Positions 4,916 to 14,026 of a DNA stretch of 25,821 nucleotides are shown here, in pieces; within the stretch, counting starts at the first letter, position 1; the number at the start of each line of letters is the position of its first letter. Position numbers and translations under genes: made by a program. The notes under the pieces were generated by a model. The model saw nothing but the letters and a program-made list of their open reading frames with translations. It did not search any database and was not told the DNA's origin. The stretch spans positions 1 through 25,821 of IMG/VR virus record IMGVR_UViG_3300023109_001303. The stretch is one strand, 5' to 3'. This stretch comes from a virus.

Positions 4916-5413
4916 ATGGCAAGAAAAAGAAATTATGTCAATAATCCTGACTTACTTGCTGCCTTGATAGATTACAAAGCTCTATGCAAGGAAGCTGAAG
5001 ACGCAGGAGATAGAAACCCAAAGGTACCAGAATACATCGGAAAGTGCATATTGTTAATTGCAACAAGACTTGCTACTAAACCAAATTTCTCTGGTTACTC
5101 TTATAAAGAAGAAATGATATCAGATGGAATTGAGAATTGCTTAATGTATATTCACAACTTCGACCCAGAAAAATCGCAGAACCCTTTTGCATATTTCACA
5201 CAAATTATCTGGTTTGCATTTCTAAGAAGAATTCAAAAAGAGAAGAAGCAGACTTATATCAAGTTTAAAGCTTCCCAAAACATGTTAACTCAGAGCATAC
5301 TTCAAGATAGTGATGCACAAACTATTCAAATGAATGAGCCACCTGAGTACATTTCCAGATTCATTGATGACTTTGAATCTAAATTTAAGAAAGGAGCCAA
5401 AGATAAGAAATGA
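4916..5413 (+). CDS. 55: late sigma factor gp55
   Basis: This 165-residue protein (T4 gp55: 185 aa) has the minimal sigma region 2 of late phage sigma factors: YIGKCILLIATRLATKPNFSGYSYKEEMISDGIENC, then FDPEKSQNPFAYFTQIIWFAFLRRIQKEKKQ. The C-terminus is short and charged, where T4 gp55 has its clamp-binding tail. gp55 replaces the host sigma factor on RNA polymerase and directs it to TATAAATA promoters, with gp45 as sliding activator. Exact TATAAATA sites at 1887 and 24327, and on the minus strand at 24142, are likely targets. Its stop overlaps the next gene by ATGA, and it has strong tandem promoters. Confidence 0.95.
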   Translation: MARKRNYVNNPDLLAALIDYKALCKEAEDAGDRNPKVPEYIGKCILLIATRLATKPNFSGYSYKEEMISDGIENCLMYIHNFDPEKSQNPFAYFTQIIWFAFLRRIQKEKKQTYIKFKASQNMLTQSILQDSDAQTIQMNEPPEYISRFIDDFESKFKKGAKDKK

Positions 5414-5826
5414 AAAAAATCTTAATTTGCGGGCTTCCTGGTTCGGGTAAGAGCTATCTTGCAGAACCGTTGGCCGAGGAATTGGGCGGTGTTTGGATTA
5501 ATGCTGACCAAGTACGTGAACATTATGACGACTGGGATTTTAGTGACGAAGGTCGTATGAGACAAGCAATGAGAATGAAGTTTCTCGCAGATGGCGTAGT
5601 TCGAGCTGGAAAATATGCTATCACAGATTTTGTTTGTCCTTTTGAAAGAGCTCGAAAAGATTTCAATGCAGATTATACAGTGTGGATGGATACAATTACA
5701 GAAGGCAGATTTGAAGATACTAATAAAATCTTTGAGAAGCCAGAAGCTGTAGACCATATCATACACACGTGGCGACAAGACGTACATGTTACTCTTGCAG
5801 CTATCATTAGAGCGAGATATGAGTGA
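5410..5826 (+). CDS. CysC-like (adenylylsulfate-kinase-like) P-loop kinase
   Basis: This 138-residue protein opens with MKKILICGLPGSGKSYLAEPLA, a Walker A at residues 8-15. INADQVREHYDDWDF follows, resembling the DGDxxR element of APS kinases that positions the acceptor substrate. It also has AITDFVCPFERARKDF (compare the FISP-type motif of CysC) and the strand YTVWMDT. Canonical APS kinases are around 200 residues, so this is a compact version lacking the usual C-terminal part. APS kinase phosphorylates adenylylsulfate to PAPS, but relatives phosphorylate other nucleotide-linked substrates. It overlaps gp55 upstream and DUF2061 downstream and forms one unit with the nucleotidyltransferase at 6030. 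Kinase family membership is fairly firm; substrate is unknown. Confidence 0.75.
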   Translation: MKKILICGLPGSGKSYLAEPLAEELGGVWINADQVREHYDDWDFSDEGRMRQAMRMKFLADGVVRAGKYAITDFVCPFERARKDFNADYTVWMDTITEGRFEDTNKIFEKPEAVDHIIHTWRQDVHVTLAAIIRARYE

Positions 5827-6037
5827 AGTAACAAAAGCTAGACATTTAGCAAAAGCAGTTACATGGAGAATTATAGCAAGTATAACTACAGCATCAATTG
5901 CATTATATTTTGGTTTACCTCAAAAAGCAGTAGGCGCAGTATTTCTTGCTGATATAGTAATAAAATTTGTATTGTATTATGGGCATGAACGCTTATGGTA
6001 CAATCATATAAAATTTGGAGTAAAGGAAAATGATTGA
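5819..6037 (+). CDS. DUF2061 membrane protein
   Basis: I start this gene at the ATG at 5819, which overlaps the kinase stop, giving 72 residues. A start at 5786 would lie deep inside the kinase gene. The sequence fits DUF2061: KAVTWRIIASITTASIALYF forms the first membrane segment, then FLADIVIKFVLYYGHERLWY the second, with the family-typical YYxHERxWY and a C-terminal KFGVKE. DUF2061 proteins are small inner-membrane proteins of unknown function, and as I recall bacterial homologues can occur beside sulfate-activation genes. Here it sits between a CysC-like kinase and an HxGH nucleotidyltransferase, with overlapping ends on both sides. A role in the same pathway, such as transport or membrane docking, is inference. 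Confidence 0.85.
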   Translation: MSEVTKARHLAKAVTWRIIASITTASIALYFGLPQKAVGAVFLADIVIKFVLYYGHERLWYNHIKFGVKEND

Positions 6038-6455
6038 TATTGAGAAGATGTTCGATTATAAAAAGCCAACTGTGCAAATGTTAGGCAGATGGCAACCGTG
6101 GCATGATGGCCATACAGAATTATTTAAAAAGTGTTTGACAATTACAGGACAAGTTGTTATAATGGTACGTGACGTGTTTAAATTCGAAGGTGATGCTGGA
6201 GCAGGTCGTACTGGAGTACAAGACGACAATCCATTTGGTATGATACAAACCATTGAAGGTATTGAAAAAGGATTATCAGAGCATGGTTATTATAATGGCC
6301 AACAGTATCTGATTTTAGAAGTACCAAACATTGTTGACATTAGCTATGGGCGTGGTGTAGGTTACACATTTACAGAGCATGATTTAGGAAAAGATATTCA
6401 CGAGATATCTGCAACAAAAATTCGTAAAGAAATGAGAGAAGAAGGTAAATTATGA
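6030..6455 (+). CDS. HxGH nucleotidyltransferase (cytidylyl/adenylyl/ATP-sulfurylase-like)
   Basis: This 141-residue protein has the two signatures of the HIGH-type nucleotidyltransferase superfamily. GRWQPWHDGHTELF (residues 19-32) holds the HxGH nucleotide-binding motif (His25, His28), and ISATKIRKEM (126-135) corresponds to the ISSTxxR motif. Between them are a strand with VVIMVRD and a DDNPFGMIQTIEGIE segment recalling ATP sulfurylase or NMN adenylyltransferase. Members transfer AMP or CMP to sulfate, phosphosugars, NMN or flavin mononucleotide. Clustering with a CysC-like kinase favours activation of an oxyanion or phospho-compound, but glycerol-phosphate or NMN activity cannot be excluded. 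It overlaps DUF2061 by eight bases and the deformylase by four. Confidence 0.8.
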   Translation: MIDIEKMFDYKKPTVQMLGRWQPWHDGHTELFKKCLTITGQVVIMVRDVFKFEGDAGAGRTGVQDDNPFGMIQTIEGIEKGLSEHGYYNGQQYLILEVPNIVDISYGRGVGYTFTEHDLGKDIHEISATKIRKEMREEGKL

Positions 6456-9895: not shown

Positions 9896-12442
9896 ATGAG
9901 TATGACTTCATTCTACACTTCAGTCGAGCGTTACGGCAATAATATCTTGCATCGTGGTTACGAAAACGGTAAACGTTTTTCATATCGCGTTCCTTATAAG
10001 CCAACTCTCTACTTACATACACCAAAATCCGGTGACGAGGGATATACTTCTCTTAAAGGTAATTTACCATTGAGTCCACAGCAGTTTGGCTCGATGCGTG
10101 AATCCAAAGAATTTACTGAAGAATACAAAGGTGTTCACGGTATGAAAATCTTTGGTAACACAAACTATACTGCTCAATTTATCCAAGAAAATTATCCCGA
10201 CGATGTACGTTATGACATTAACCAAGTCAACATCGTCAGCTTCGACATCGAGGTCGATATCAGTGACGGGTATGCAAACACAGAATATGCTGACAAAGAA
10301 ATCACATCTATTGCATACAAATCTTCAAAATCAAATATCTATTATTTGCTTGGTCGTAAAGACTTTGACAAGACTCAAACTATCACTGGTATTGACCCCG
10401 ATAATATTATGTTCATCAAGTTTGACTCAGAGGTACAATTACTGAGACGCTTTGTTGAGATATGGGTATCTGATTATCCTGATGTTGTAACAGGTTGGAA
10501 CGTCCAATACTTTGACATTCAGTATATTGTGACTCGTATTACAAATCTATGTGGTGAAGAGTTATCAAAACGACTCAGCCCTTGGAATAATATTCGTAAA
10601 TATTCGCGAGAAGTATTTGGTAAGGTACAATCATCTTACACAATTTCAGGTGTTGCTGTTATTGACTATATGGATGCATTCAAAAAGTTTGGTTACAAAT
10701 ACGGACCACAAGAATCTTACAGACTTGACCATATTGCAAATGTTGTACTCGGTGAAAAGAAACTTGACTATTCTGAATATGGTAACTTGACTGCTCTTTA
10801 CGAACAGAATCCACAACTCTATCTCGACTATAACTTAAAAGATACACAGCTTATTGAAAGGCTCGAAGAGGAAACATCTCTACTTGCTCTTGTGATGACT
10901 GTTGCTTATGGTGGTGGAGTTAACTATAACGATGCATTTGGTACTGTTGGTATCTGGGAATCTATTATCTATCGTAAACTTATGAAAGATAAAATTGTTC
11001 CACCAATTAAAGAATCACCAGGTCAACGAGGTTCTGGTCTTGTAGGTGGTTATGTTAAAGACCCTAAACCTGCAATGTACCCTTGGGTAGTATCATTTGA
11101 CTTGAACTCACTATATCCTCACTTGATGTTACAATACAATATGTCACCTGAAACTTATTCGCATGACGACCGTGAGTATGTAACTCAAGACATGGTACTC
11201 AAAGGTGAGTTTAAAAATACAAACAAAGATTATTCAGTTGCAGCCAATGGTGCATGTTTCAGTAATAAAAAGATGGGTATCATTCCAGAGATTATTGATG
11301 AGTACTATAATAACCGTGCCAAAATCAAACAACAGATGCTTGCAGTTGAACAACAACTTGAAGTTGAAACTGACCCAGCTGAAAAGAAAAAGTTAAAGAC
11401 AGAAGCTAACCAATTACATAATTCTCAGATGTCCATAAAGATTTCTATGAACTCACTTTATGGTGCTACAGCAAACATATATTTCTTATACTATATTAAT
11501 GATATGGCTGAAGCTATTACAACATCTGGCCAGCTCAGTATTCGATATGCAGAAAAATCTGTAAACGATTATCTTAACAAAGTACTTAAAACAACTAACA
11601 AAGACTATGTTATCTATATTGATACTGACTCAGTCTATGTTGACTTTGCTTCACTCATTGAACAAGTATATGGTACGACAGACATTGATCGCAAGACTGG
11701 AGAAGAGTTCTTAGATAAAGTCTGTAAATCAAAAATTGAAGAAATCATTGAAGCAGGTTACGAAACTCTTGCATCTGATATGGGTGCCTATCGTAATGCG
11801 ATGGTAATGAAAAGAGAGAAAATCAATGACCGTGCAATCTTCATTGCAAAGAAACGATACATACTGAATACTCTCAACTCAGAAGGTGTTCACTATGAAA
11901 AACCAAAAATCTCTGTTACAGGACTTGAAAGTGTTCGTTCATCTACTCCAGAGATATGTCGTGACAAGATGCGAGAAATCTTCAACGTAATTCTAAACGA
12001 AGGTGAAGAGCAAACTCAAAAATTCATTAGTGACTTTAAACAAGAATTCTTTAAACTACCTGCACAGGTTGTTGCTCGTAACTCAGGTACTGATAACATT
12101 GAGAAGTATATGACCAAGGGTGGTTACAAGAAAGGCTGTCCTATACATGTTCGTGGTTGTATCTTGTTTAACCATTATCTTAAAGAGAAAGGTCTCAGTA
12201 AACGATACGAGTCCGTTCAGTCAGGCGATAAGATTAAGTTCGTCTATCTCAGAGTACCAAACCCACTTCGTGAAAATGTAATATCATTTCCAAATGTTCT
12301 ACCAAAAGAACTTGGACTCGAGCAATATATAGATTACGAAACACAATTTAACAAAGTTTTTCTCAGTCCCATAGAGCATATCATTGAAGCTCTCGGCTGG
12401 ACTTCAGAAAAACAAGATAACCTTGACGACTTTTTTAGTTGA
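9896..12442 (+). CDS. 43: DNA polymerase gp43 (family B)
   Basis: This is an intact 848-residue replicative polymerase (T4: 898 aa). The proofreading exonuclease has ExoI FDIEVD (116-121) and ExoII in VVTGWNVQYFDIQYI. Polymerase motif A is FDLNSLYPHLM with Asp402, motif B KISMNSLYGA (from 515), and motif C YIDTDSV with catalytic Asp576 and Asp578. KKRY follows downstream. The C-terminus DNLDDFFS is acidic-hydrophobic, the expected clamp-binding tail. No intein, split or frameshift interrupts it, although split gp43 genes occur in other T4-like phages. A second ATG two codons after the first is an equally possible start. Its TGA stop lies within the -35 box of the next promoter. Confidence 0.98.
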   Translation: MSMTSFYTSVERYGNNILHRGYENGKRFSYRVPYKPTLYLHTPKSGDEGYTSLKGNLPLSPQQFGSMRESKEFTEEYKGVHGMKIFGNTNYTAQFIQENYPDDVRYDINQVNIVSFDIEVDISDGYANTEYADKEITSIAYKSSKSNIYYLLGRKDFDKTQTITGIDPDNIMFIKFDSEVQLLRRFVEIWVSDYPDVVTGWNVQYFDIQYIVTRITNLCGEELSKRLSPWNNIRKYSREVFGKVQSSYTISGVAVIDYMDAFKKFGYKYGPQESYRLDHIANVVLGEKKLDYSEYGNLTALYEQNPQLYLDYNLKDTQLIERLEEETSLLALVMTVAYGGGVNYNDAFGTVGIWESIIYRKLMKDKIVPPIKESPGQRGSGLVGGYVKDPKPAMYPWVVSFDLNSLYPHLMLQYNMSPETYSHDDREYVTQDMVLKGEFKNTNKDYSVAANGACFSNKKMGIIPEIIDEYYNNRAKIKQQMLAVEQQLEVETDPAEKKKLKTEANQLHNSQMSIKISMNSLYGATANIYFLYYINDMAEAITTSGQLSIRYAEKSVNDYLNKVLKTTNKDYVIYIDTDSVYVDFASLIEQVYGTTDIDRKTGEEFLDKVCKSKIEEIIEAGYETLASDMGAYRNAMVMKREKINDRAIFIAKKRYILNTLNSEGVHYEKPKISVTGLESVRSSTPEICRDKMREIFNVILNEGEEQTQKFISDFKQEFFKLPAQVVARNSGTDNIEKYMTKGGYKKGCPIHVRGCILFNHYLKEKGLSKRYESVQSGDKIKFVYLRVPNPLRENVISFPNVLPKELGLEQYIDYETQFNKVFLSPIEHIIEALGWTSEKQDNLDDFFS

Positions 12443-12467
12443 CAAATACAAACAAACGTGTTATAAT
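12439..12467 (+). promoter_or_regulatory. consensus promoter overlapping the gp43 stop
   Basis: TTGACA 12439-12444 contains the gp43 TGA stop (12440-12442). The -10 is CGTGTTATAAT ending at 12467, with a 17-base spacer. It drives the cluster 12491-13983. Confidence 0.87.
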
Positions 12468-12490
12468 ATAACACAATTATGGAGAACATT

Positions 12491-12778
12491 ATGAAAGATG
12501 TACAATTAGTAAGACTAGTAACAGGTGAAGAAGTTGTTGCAGAAGTTAGTTACGATAAGGGATTTTATACCCTAACAGACGCAATTCTGCTAGTCCCAGC
12601 AGGAGAAGGTAAAATTGGAATGGTTCCATTTGTACCTTATGCAAAACGTGAACCAGTCGTTATCGGCGAAGCTCATGTTATGTTCCAATTAACTCCTGCA
12701 GATGAGTTAAAAAGACAAGTGATTGAAGCTACCACAGGTATTTTGATGCCAGGTAACGACGGACTTAAATTAGTATAA
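12491..12778 (+). CDS. small beta-rich protein next to gp43, 95 aa
   Basis: The ATG at 12491 has an ideal GGAG six bases upstream (12481-12484). The ATG at 12479 would place that site inside the gene, so I use 12491. The product begins KDVQLVRLVTGEEVVAEVSYDKGFYTLTDAILLVP, a run of short strands with a turn at TGEEV. This resembles the opening of Sm-like small beta-barrels found in marine T4-like phages, but I cannot confirm the fold. A loop with GMVPFVPYAKREPVVIGEAHV and a short helix (ADELKRQVIEATTGI) follow. It heads the transcript also encoding glutaredoxin and cytochrome c. An RNA- or nucleoprotein-binding role is speculation. Confidence 0.75.
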   Translation: MKDVQLVRLVTGEEVVAEVSYDKGFYTLTDAILLVPAGEGKIGMVPFVPYAKREPVVIGEAHVMFQLTPADELKRQVIEATTGILMPGNDGLKLV

Positions 12779-12787
12779 GGAGATAAA

Positions 12788-13015
12788 ATGGTAAAAATAT
12801 ATGGCAAACCATCATGTGGTTATTGTGTAATGGCTGAATCGTTGTGTAAACAAAAGAGCGTTCCATATCAATATCTCAGTTTAGATAAAGATTATACAAC
12901 TGAAGAATTTTTTGAAACTTTCCCTGGTGCAAGAACCTTCCCACAAATTCAAATCGAAGGTGAAAACATCGGTGGATATACTGAATTAGAAAAGAGGTTA
13001 AAGTTAAATACATGA
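12788..13015 (+). CDS. glutaredoxin
   Basis: This 75-residue protein has the thioredoxin fold of short phage and bacterial glutaredoxins: KIYGKPSCGYC with active-site CGYC at residues 10-13, TFPQI (50-54) with the cis-proline, and GGYTEL (62-67), the glutathione-binding turn. Glutaredoxins pass electrons from glutathione to enzymes such as ribonucleotide reductase and peroxiredoxins. A strong AAGGAG lies at the right distance. It overlaps the cytochrome c gene by ATGA, an unusual pairing. T4 glutaredoxin (NrdC, 87 aa) serves phage ribonucleotide reductase; reductase genes are not in this window. A Prx5-type peroxiredoxin at 24931 is another possible partner. Confidence 0.93.
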   Translation: MVKIYGKPSCGYCVMAESLCKQKSVPYQYLSLDKDYTTEEFFETFPGARTFPQIQIEGENIGGYTELEKRLKLNT

Positions 13016-13335
13016 AATATAAAATCTTAACAGTAGCAACTTTATTTGCTATCGGTCTTACAGCACAAGCAGAAGAAAGGCTTGATAGTTATAAAGAAAT
13101 CAGACCAGTGTGGAAAACCTGTGCAGCATGTCATGGCCCACAAGGTCAAGGTGGCATCGGTCCAAAACTCGCAGGACAAAGTACTGATGACATTATCAGT
13201 AAGCTTTTAAAATATAAAGCTGGTGAAACAGTTGGACCACAATCTATGTTGATGTGGGGAACAGCTAAAGGTTTAACTGATGGACAAATTGGTACCATCA
13301 GCGTATACATTACACAAGGATTTCCAAATGAGTAA
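13012..13335 (+). CDS. secreted class I c-type cytochrome
   Basis: This 107-residue protein has a clear signal peptide (basic MKYK, hydrophobic ILTVATLFAIGLT, then AQA, probable cleavage after residue 20). A single heme-binding motif CAACH (37-41) follows in WKTCAACHGPQGQGGIGPKLAGQ. The likely axial methionine is Met79 or Met81 in GPQSMLMWG, followed by the C-terminal helix LTDGQIGTISVYI. This is the standard layout of soluble periplasmic monoheme cytochromes (c553/c5-like). If made, it would be exported and matured by the host heme-ligation system and could donate electrons to a terminal oxidase or another periplasmic acceptor. It is embedded between glutaredoxin and the MazG-like gene with overlaps on both sides, so it is a regular member of the transcript. 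Confidence 0.9.
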   Translation: MKYKILTVATLFAIGLTAQAEERLDSYKEIRPVWKTCAACHGPQGQGGIGPKLAGQSTDDIISKLLKYKAGETVGPQSMLMWGTAKGLTDGQIGTISVYITQGFPNE

Positions 13336-13738
13336 AAATTGGGTAGAAGATATCCATGTCATGCAAGGTAAATATCTTACAAGACAATGGGTAGAAAAGA
13401 ATCCAGAGAAACTACAAAAGTTTCTTGAGTTTCGTGTTGACTTTCTTAATGAAGAGTTAGAAGAAACTCGTAAAGCTGTATCTGAATATGATGCAGAAGA
13501 GATTGTAGATGGATTAATTGACCTATGTGTTGTAGCTATTGGTACACTTGATGCATTTGGAGTTGACCCTTATAAAGCTTGGGACGAAGTACTTAAAGCG
13601 AACATGAACAAAGAGGTAGGTGAAAAGCCATCTAGGCCAAATCCACTCGGAGTACCAGACTTAATTAAACCAGATACATGGTACCCACCTTCGCATGAAG
13701 GTAACCATGGTAAATTTGCAAACTTAAAAGGAGAATAA
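13328..13738 (+). CDS. MazG-like nucleoside triphosphate pyrophosphohydrolase
   Basis: I start at the ATG at 13328, which overlaps the cytochrome stop, giving 136 residues; a start at 13280 would extend far into the cytochrome gene. FRVDFLNEELEETRKAV and EIVDGLIDLCVVAIGTLDAFG carry the EExxE and ExxD metal-binding helices of all-alpha NTP pyrophosphatases, followed by AWDEVLKANMNK, typical of MazG/HisE-like phage enzymes. They hydrolyse (d)NTPs to monophosphates and pyrophosphate. In a phage making modified cytosine, such an enzyme could remove unwanted dCTP or dUTP, as the unrelated or distantly related T4 gp56 does, but substrate preference is not readable. The C-terminus (about 100-136) is Pro/Gly/His-rich. 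Confidence 0.82.
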   Translation: MSKNWVEDIHVMQGKYLTRQWVEKNPEKLQKFLEFRVDFLNEELEETRKAVSEYDAEEIVDGLIDLCVVAIGTLDAFGVDPYKAWDEVLKANMNKEVGEKPSRPNPLGVPDLIKPDTWYPPSHEGNHGKFANLKGE

Positions 13739-13740
13739 AA

Positions 13741-13983
13741 ATGGCAATGAAAGAACTATCAATGAAAGAACTATTAGTGAATGCACTCATTTCTAAATAT
13801 GAAGCAGCGATCGCAGAACACACAGCAAACATAGCAGTAATGCTTGAGCAAGGTGTTGGAGTAGCTGAACATCCAGGTATTGTTGAAACATTGGATTTAG
13901 AAATGGCTAAACTTGCTGAAGCTGAAGATAAACTCAGTACAGCAAAACAATTTTGTGCACCAATTCCACCTAAAGTTGTATAA
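13741..13983 (+). CDS. small helical hypothetical protein, 80 aa
   Basis: A strong AAGGAG precedes the ATG. The protein looks mostly helical: KELSMKELLVNALISKYEAAIAEH, a short Gly/Val break with GVGVAEHPG, then a second helix (IVETLDLEMAKLAEAEDKLS). This is a two-helix hairpin of Ala/Glu-rich composition. I recall the LINALIxKYEA / EHP / AEDKLS arrangement from marine T4-like phages as an unassigned family. It ends the transcript begun at 12439; the next promoter starts 14 bases after its stop. Function unknown. Confidence 0.75.
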   Translation: MAMKELSMKELLVNALISKYEAAIAEHTANIAVMLEQGVGVAEHPGIVETLDLEMAKLAEAEDKLSTAKQFCAPIPPKVV

Positions 13984-13997
13984 AATACAAATAATGG

Positions 13998-14026
13998 TTG
14001 ACAAACACACATTAGTGTGTTATAAT
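13998..14026 (+). promoter_or_regulatory. consensus promoter with palindromic spacer
   Basis: TTGACA 13998-14003 and TATAAT 14021-14026 are 17 bases apart. The spacer is almost filled by a perfect inverted repeat, AACACAC-ATTA-GTGTGTT (14004-14021). It drives the nucleotide-modification genes starting at 14052. Confidence 0.87.

Follow-up and report, generated by a model that had tools for sequence, protein, structure and literature searches.

The locus and its transcription unit

The window analysed here is the whole 25,821-nt viral stretch of IMG/VR record IMGVR_UViG_3300023109_001303. Behind the end of its DNA polymerase gene lies a transcription unit with the gene order ORF99-grx-cyt-mazG-ORF80, in which cyt encodes a small cytochrome c (Table 1). 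The stop codon of the glutaredoxin gene (grx) and the ATG of cyt overlap by 4 nt (ATGA, 13012-13015), and the mazG ATG (13328) falls within the 3' end of cyt, which bears out the coupling to glutaredoxin and a MazG-like gene proposed in a preliminary description of this DNA. The same description placed the cytochrome in the transcript after DNA polymerase. Its position after the polymerase is right, but the unit need not depend on the polymerase transcript because it has a promoter of its own, whose -35 box contains the stop codon of gp43 (DNA polymerase).

Table 1. Features of the cytochrome locus (window positions).
Feature	Position	Strand	Evidence
Unit promoter, TTGACA-N17-TATAAT, extended -10 (TGT)	12439..12467	+	12/12 consensus
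ORF99, first gene of the unit, phrog_527	12479..12778	+	same position in relatives
Glutaredoxin, CGYC active site	12788..13015	+	PF00462 2.3e-12
Exported monoheme class I cytochrome c (predicted), 107 aa	13012..13335	+	motif, Pfam, fold model, conservation
Predicted signal peptide, residues 1-20 (MKYKILTVATLFAIGLTAQA), AxA cleavage before EE	13012..13071	+	read by eye
Heme attachment motif CAACH, residues 37-41 (C37-A-A-C-H41)	13120..13134	+	C, C, H invariant 53/53
Axial ligand M81 (likely)	13252..13254	+	invariant 53/53; aligned to ligand-loop Met of cytochrome c4
MazG-like nucleotide pyrophosphohydrolase	13328..13738	+	PF01503 1.2e-11, phrog_671 2.6e-21
ORF80, phrog_1811, last gene ahead of the next promoter	13741..13983	+	
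Next perfect sigma-70 promoter, opens the following unit	13998..14026	+	12/12 consensus

The pattern TTGACA-N17-TATAAT, searched with at most one mismatch allowed, occurs nine times in the window versus 0.66 expected, and all nine matches are perfect. The unit promoter is kept at 12/12 positions in 19/19 relatives that share the grx-cyt order and whose sequence reaches far enough upstream, and it lies ~520-544 nt upstream of the cytochrome gene in them. In the L135 type, whose cytochrome gene directly follows the polymerase gene, we did not find it. Such a conserved perfect sigma-70 promoter is in favour of the unit being read by the RNA polymerase of the host as soon as infection begins, and the unit, cytochrome included, is probably switched on early; the early expression suggested before has thus gained indirect support. 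The nine window promoters (2417, 4722 on the minus strand, 4852, 6135, 9844, 12439, 13998, 20360 and 23467) are strikingly uniform and early-type, most of them with an extended -10, and the one at 6135 sits within an ORF.

By its genes the carrier is a T4-like phage. Its gp43 matches phrog_262 (4.5e-294) and is ~44% identical to the gp43 of T4-like cyanophages, and T4-type gp43, gp46/47-like and clamp genes flank the cytochrome. The phage is probably marine, judging by the likeness of its polymerase to those of cyanophages, while the kinship of the cytochrome suggests a gammaproteobacterium as the host. Pelagimyophages lacked mazG in a published survey (PMC7029224), which gives a weak argument against SAR11 as host. 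No tRNA genes were found in the window. The window also encodes a peroxiredoxin (Redoxin, PF08534; 24931-25449) that has no signal peptide and is up to 61% identical to Synechococcus phage peroxiredoxins, and at 5410-6455 three overlapping genes for an adenylylsulfate kinase-like P-loop protein, a small membrane protein and an NMN adenylyltransferase-like HxGH protein.

The cytochrome protein

The ORF starts with MKYKILTVATLFAIGLTAQA followed by EE, and this start has the layout of a predicted signal peptide, i.e. a lysine, a hydrophobic stretch and AQA before EE; the relatives' N-termini, also read by eye, show an AxA-type or similar signal peptide. From this predicted signal peptide we infer that the protein is exported to the periplasm. 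It scores above the cut-offs of two Pfam models, PF00034 (31.1 bits, cut-off 21.3) and PF13442 (29.0 bits, cut-off 27). Among the 39 proteins of the window it is the only one with a CxxCH motif, and the chance rate of this motif in residue-shuffled copies of the 39 proteins is 0.023 per proteome. Two Met residues, 79 and 81, follow the CAACH motif. In profile alignments M81 pairs with a residue of cytochrome c4 (entry 1etp) that we number M167 by counting along the alignment, and M81 is also aligned with a Met of c554. Since M79 and residue 80 vary and M81 is invariant, M81 is the likely distal ligand, and the candidate axial Met mentioned earlier can be narrowed down to this residue.

The AlphaFold2 model of the protein has a mean pLDDT of 84, and >90 across most of the core. 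Its best solved matches in Foldseek, i.e. 8yts, 1c53, 2zzs and 1cno, are all c-type cytochromes, as are the five top matches, each with E < 0.001; the model has no match in a library of viral structure models. Membership in three NCBIfam families was rejected, namely SoxX (score 18.9, cut-off 61), cytochrome c550 (22, cut-off 125) and cytochrome c551 (16.9, cut-off 118).

Viral relatives and selection

Searching IMG/VR with the single window protein gave 27 loci, and searching with an alignment gave 218 stretches that encode cytochrome relatives. We fetched the best 80 of the 218 and read 53 distinct proteins in full. Loss of a heme or Met ligand in relatives had been named as a possible refutation; we looked for it and found C37, C40, H41 and M81 kept in 53/53 distinct viral proteins. 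The median dN/dS in the group sharing the window's slot is 0.22 for the core and 0.50 for the signal peptide, both being simple Nei-Gojobori estimates with dS partly near saturation, and by these estimates the core is under purifying selection. The gene has a cellular homolog, lies in a phage genome and is under purifying selection, as is asked of an auxiliary metabolic gene. The motif, the fold model, the conservation and the selection all back the earlier view of a full exported c-type cytochrome, and at the sequence level the gene is an intact small cytochrome c, neither a remnant nor a one-off.

No cytochrome relative was detected in 50,697 GenBank phage records with three cytochrome forms as queries, no DNA match to the cytochrome region was found among GenBank phage isolates, and the window cytochrome has no PHROG match. 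Given the lack of PHROG and GenBank phage relatives, the family may have been overlooked so far. Phage-encoded respiratory electron carriers had been called uncommon, which for this cytochrome holds for the GenBank phages but not for IMG/VR with its 218 stretches.

Gene contexts and mobility

The viral cytochrome was seen in about 16 gene contexts. The slot behind the polymerase gene occurs in three states: polymerase-ORF99-MazG, the same with glutaredoxin, and the same with glutaredoxin and cytochrome. The cytochrome gene is present in 18 and absent from 61 of the 79 slot relatives with enough sequence, and is hence optional cargo; one relative lacking it, L220, has a MazG 90% identical to that of the window. 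In locus L135 the neighbours are again the polymerase, 74% identical to the window's, and MazG. The L135 cytochrome is 75-77% identical to those of L126-L128, which belong to a different phage context, versus 51-61% to those of its slot mates, suggesting that the gene either passed from one phage to another or was gained a second time in the slot. Glutaredoxin lies beside the cytochrome in other contexts (L148, L167 and L168), as does ribonucleotide reductase (L166 and L168), so that this dNTP-supply module recurs near the cytochrome in unrelated contexts.

Several other neighbours were observed. Different glutaredoxins lie on both sides of the cytochrome in L148:2004-2979 and L167:7627-8604, a context unrelated to that of the window. 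A 414-aa isocitrate lyase-family protein (PF00463) is encoded close to the cytochrome in L017, L020 and L021 (also in L123 and L150), and the cytochromes of the L017, L020 and L021 group have an extra segment between the signal peptide and the heme domain. A membrane protein of small size (110-170 aa; cluster c41), for which Pfam has no match, recurs near the cytochrome (L153:5877-6215, L163:7414-7815, L165:3073-3591, L125:2566-2904, L166:9978-10310 and L167:5032-5382) and touches it in L153 and L163; it has relatives in phage C48C1 and the Methylophilales phages Melnitz. One cytochrome-bearing phage contig encodes a ferredoxin with 4Fe-4S domains (PF00037; L007:1953-2288, minus strand).

Distant relatives beside putative copper monooxygenases

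The most distant cytochrome relatives (L022-L027) adjoin one or two proteins of ~410-430 aa, e.g. in L025:4310-7489, L026:4441-7477 and L024:561-2157. At their N-terminal end these neighbours have a CxxCH, and HH, H, HxH and M positions are conserved among them; we take the latter four to recall the copper ligands of PHM. Pfam gave weak matches for the neighbour protein (Cu2_monoox_C, 0.12), and the 30 best PDB matches of its model, which is of low confidence (pLDDT 52), are PHM or dopamine beta-hydroxylase without exception. The L024 contig includes T4-like genes. Searching the GenBank phages with one such protein found none. By this model, L022-L027 look like a phage-borne, cytochrome-linked cassette of a putative copper monooxygenase.

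Cellular relatives and origin

A scan of GTDB with exact peptides of the window protein gave partial matches of 30-45% identity, the best being ~45% over part of the length. With the anchored viral form L152 as the lead, full-length homologs were found in a Haliea MAG, and such homologs are encoded in 14 of the 195 genomes of its order. This bacterial anchored family (L169 and L177-L197, monoheme, from Haliea-related gammaproteobacteria) shares 41-46% identity with the viral anchored form along the full length. An N-terminal anchor and a CxGxCY segment are found in the viral loci L148, L151, L152, L156 and L161-L168 and are absent from the window protein. In the regions read, the bacterial homologs occur as solitary genes, outside any respiratory operon and without an oxidase neighbour.

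In a tree of 76 cores, for which 83 columns and a restricted set of cellular sequences were used, the 52 viral rows fall on one side of a branch (99/98), beside the anchored bacterial family; given these columns and this set, a single origin of the viral cytochromes is likely, not proven. The viral rows with a signal peptide form a group of 35 (100/97), and the anchored viral forms branch closer to the bacterial rows than they do, so on this tree the anchor was most simply replaced once. The phylogeny that had been proposed for finding the host donor thus leads to gammaproteobacterial, membrane-anchored kin as the nearest family, at ~40-46% identity, but to no close cellular donor.

Possible functions of the cytochrome

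With slightly better than even confidence, we favour the reading that the exported monoheme cytochrome c is an early-made soluble electron shuttle to the host terminal oxidase. The unit would be transcribed early by the host RNA polymerase, the apoprotein exported by Sec and the heme attached by the host Ccm system. The soluble holoprotein would be reduced by the cytochrome bc1 complex, or by a periplasmic dehydrogenase, and pass the electrons on to the host's c-type terminal oxidase. Proton-motive force and ATP would be sustained in this way during the shutdown of host protein synthesis, paying for DNA replication, and exchanging the anchor for a signal peptide would have turned a tethered carrier into a diffusible one. 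Bacterial c4/c552-type carriers move electrons from bc1 towards the terminal oxidase, and the bc1-cbb3 supercomplex entry 8smr includes cytochrome c4.

We favour the shuttle because the window protein most resembles carriers of this type. Further reasons are the Pfam matches, the fold model, the 53/53 ligands, the dN/dS of 0.22 and the conserved promoter, the full-length anchored bacterial homologs together with one viral clade (99/98), and the glutaredoxin and ribonucleotide reductase company recurring in unrelated contexts. Three observations count against it. The mature pI is 6.9, i.e. near neutral, for the window cytochrome and acidic for others, and therefore a basic docking patch is not obvious; the bacterial homologs stand alone, with no oxidase neighbour; and the gene is dispensable, to judge from the 61 of 79 slot relatives without it.

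The cytochrome could instead be the donor or acceptor for one periplasmic redox enzyme (a peroxidase, dehydrogenase or monooxygenase), for example feeding the host cytochrome c peroxidase as part of an antioxidant set with glutaredoxin and peroxiredoxin. Both of these are encoded in the window, and the distant relatives in L022-L027 adjoin cytochrome-fused, PHM-like putative copper monooxygenases. However, glutaredoxin and the window peroxiredoxin have no signal peptide and so belong to a different compartment, the window's cytochrome has no such enzyme nearby, and the roughly 16 contexts have no constant periplasmic partner, which makes a dedicated partner rather unlikely. We consider it more improbable still that the cytochrome diverts electrons or blocks the host chain, lowering respiration, poisoning competing phages or excluding superinfection. 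An exported, optional and mobile product behind an early promoter is like many host-takeover genes, but every redox ligand is kept under purifying selection, and a protein that merely blocked the chain would have no need of both heme ligands.

That most slot relatives lack the gene would also agree with neutral cargo, a captured host gene whose carriage is accidental and of no use to the phage. We think this very improbable in view of >200 viral stretches, one clade, the dN/dS of 0.22, the coupled starts and stops and the repeated appearance in new contexts. Finally, the window is a single IMG/VR record of 25.8 kb that is not backed by a complete genome, and a cellular or chimeric contig, with the cytochrome outside any phage genome, might be imagined; the T4-type gp43, gp46/47-like and clamp genes flanking the cytochrome and a gene order shared by many independent contigs, some >60 kb, leave this idea almost no probability.

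Beyond the shuttle itself, we tentatively consider a wider proposal, to which we give somewhat less than an even chance: aquatic T4-like and other phages may share a dedicated family of respiratory cytochromes, captured from gammaproteobacteria, freed of its anchor in one lineage, passed between phages and expressed early for the host terminal oxidase, as a counterpart in heterotrophs of the photosynthesis genes of cyanophages.

Comparison with known systems

The Haliea-related anchored monoheme cytochrome has the same core as the window protein and is its nearest cellular neighbour in the tree. It shares the C-x-G-x-CY segment with the viral anchored form and has an N-terminal anchor, whereas in the window form a predicted cleavable signal peptide takes the place of the anchor and CxGxCY is absent. 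The soluble class I cytochromes c552/c554/c546-556 (1cno of Pseudomonas nautica, 2zzs of Vibrio parahaemolyticus and 8yts of Thioalkalivibrio), which we compared together with 1etp, and the c4 domains have the fold (Foldseek probability 1.00), CxxCH, Met and, by prediction for the window protein, the signal peptide in common with the window cytochrome, but they are cellular and 25-38% identical to it. The diheme cytochrome c4 (1etp) has two hemes, while the window cytochrome, with a single CxxCH in its 107 aa, has a site for one.

Cyanophages are well known to carry the electron carriers plastocyanin and ferredoxin, and petF has been described as such a cyanophage carrier (PMC13079714). These are likewise phage-borne electron carriers maintaining the host energy supply; they serve the cyanobacterial photosynthetic chain, whereas the window cytochrome is of a gammaproteobacterial type and presumably respiratory. 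A phage SoxD with cytochrome c motifs has been published, some viral copies of which lack the motif (PMC8190135). It also represents a cytochrome c motif carried by phages as an auxiliary metabolic gene, but SoxD is a sulfur-enzyme subunit found with SoxC, while the window cytochrome would be a free carrier and has no sox genes with it. A study on phages from oxygen-poor waters stated that no electron carriers such as cytochromes had been seen in the phages it described (PMC8115048). Among open-access papers we found no free phage monoheme cytochrome c, though priority is unproven.

Phage genes that sustain photosynthesis are well known, and to our knowledge there is little direct evidence of phages supporting aerobic respiration in heterotrophs. 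Our analysis suggests that the genomes of some phages may supply a respiratory electron carrier. Naturally occurring genomes that share the slot but differ in whether they carry the gene, together with the early-type promoter, turn into a testable question what a phage may gain from an electron carrier of its own once host protein synthesis stops.
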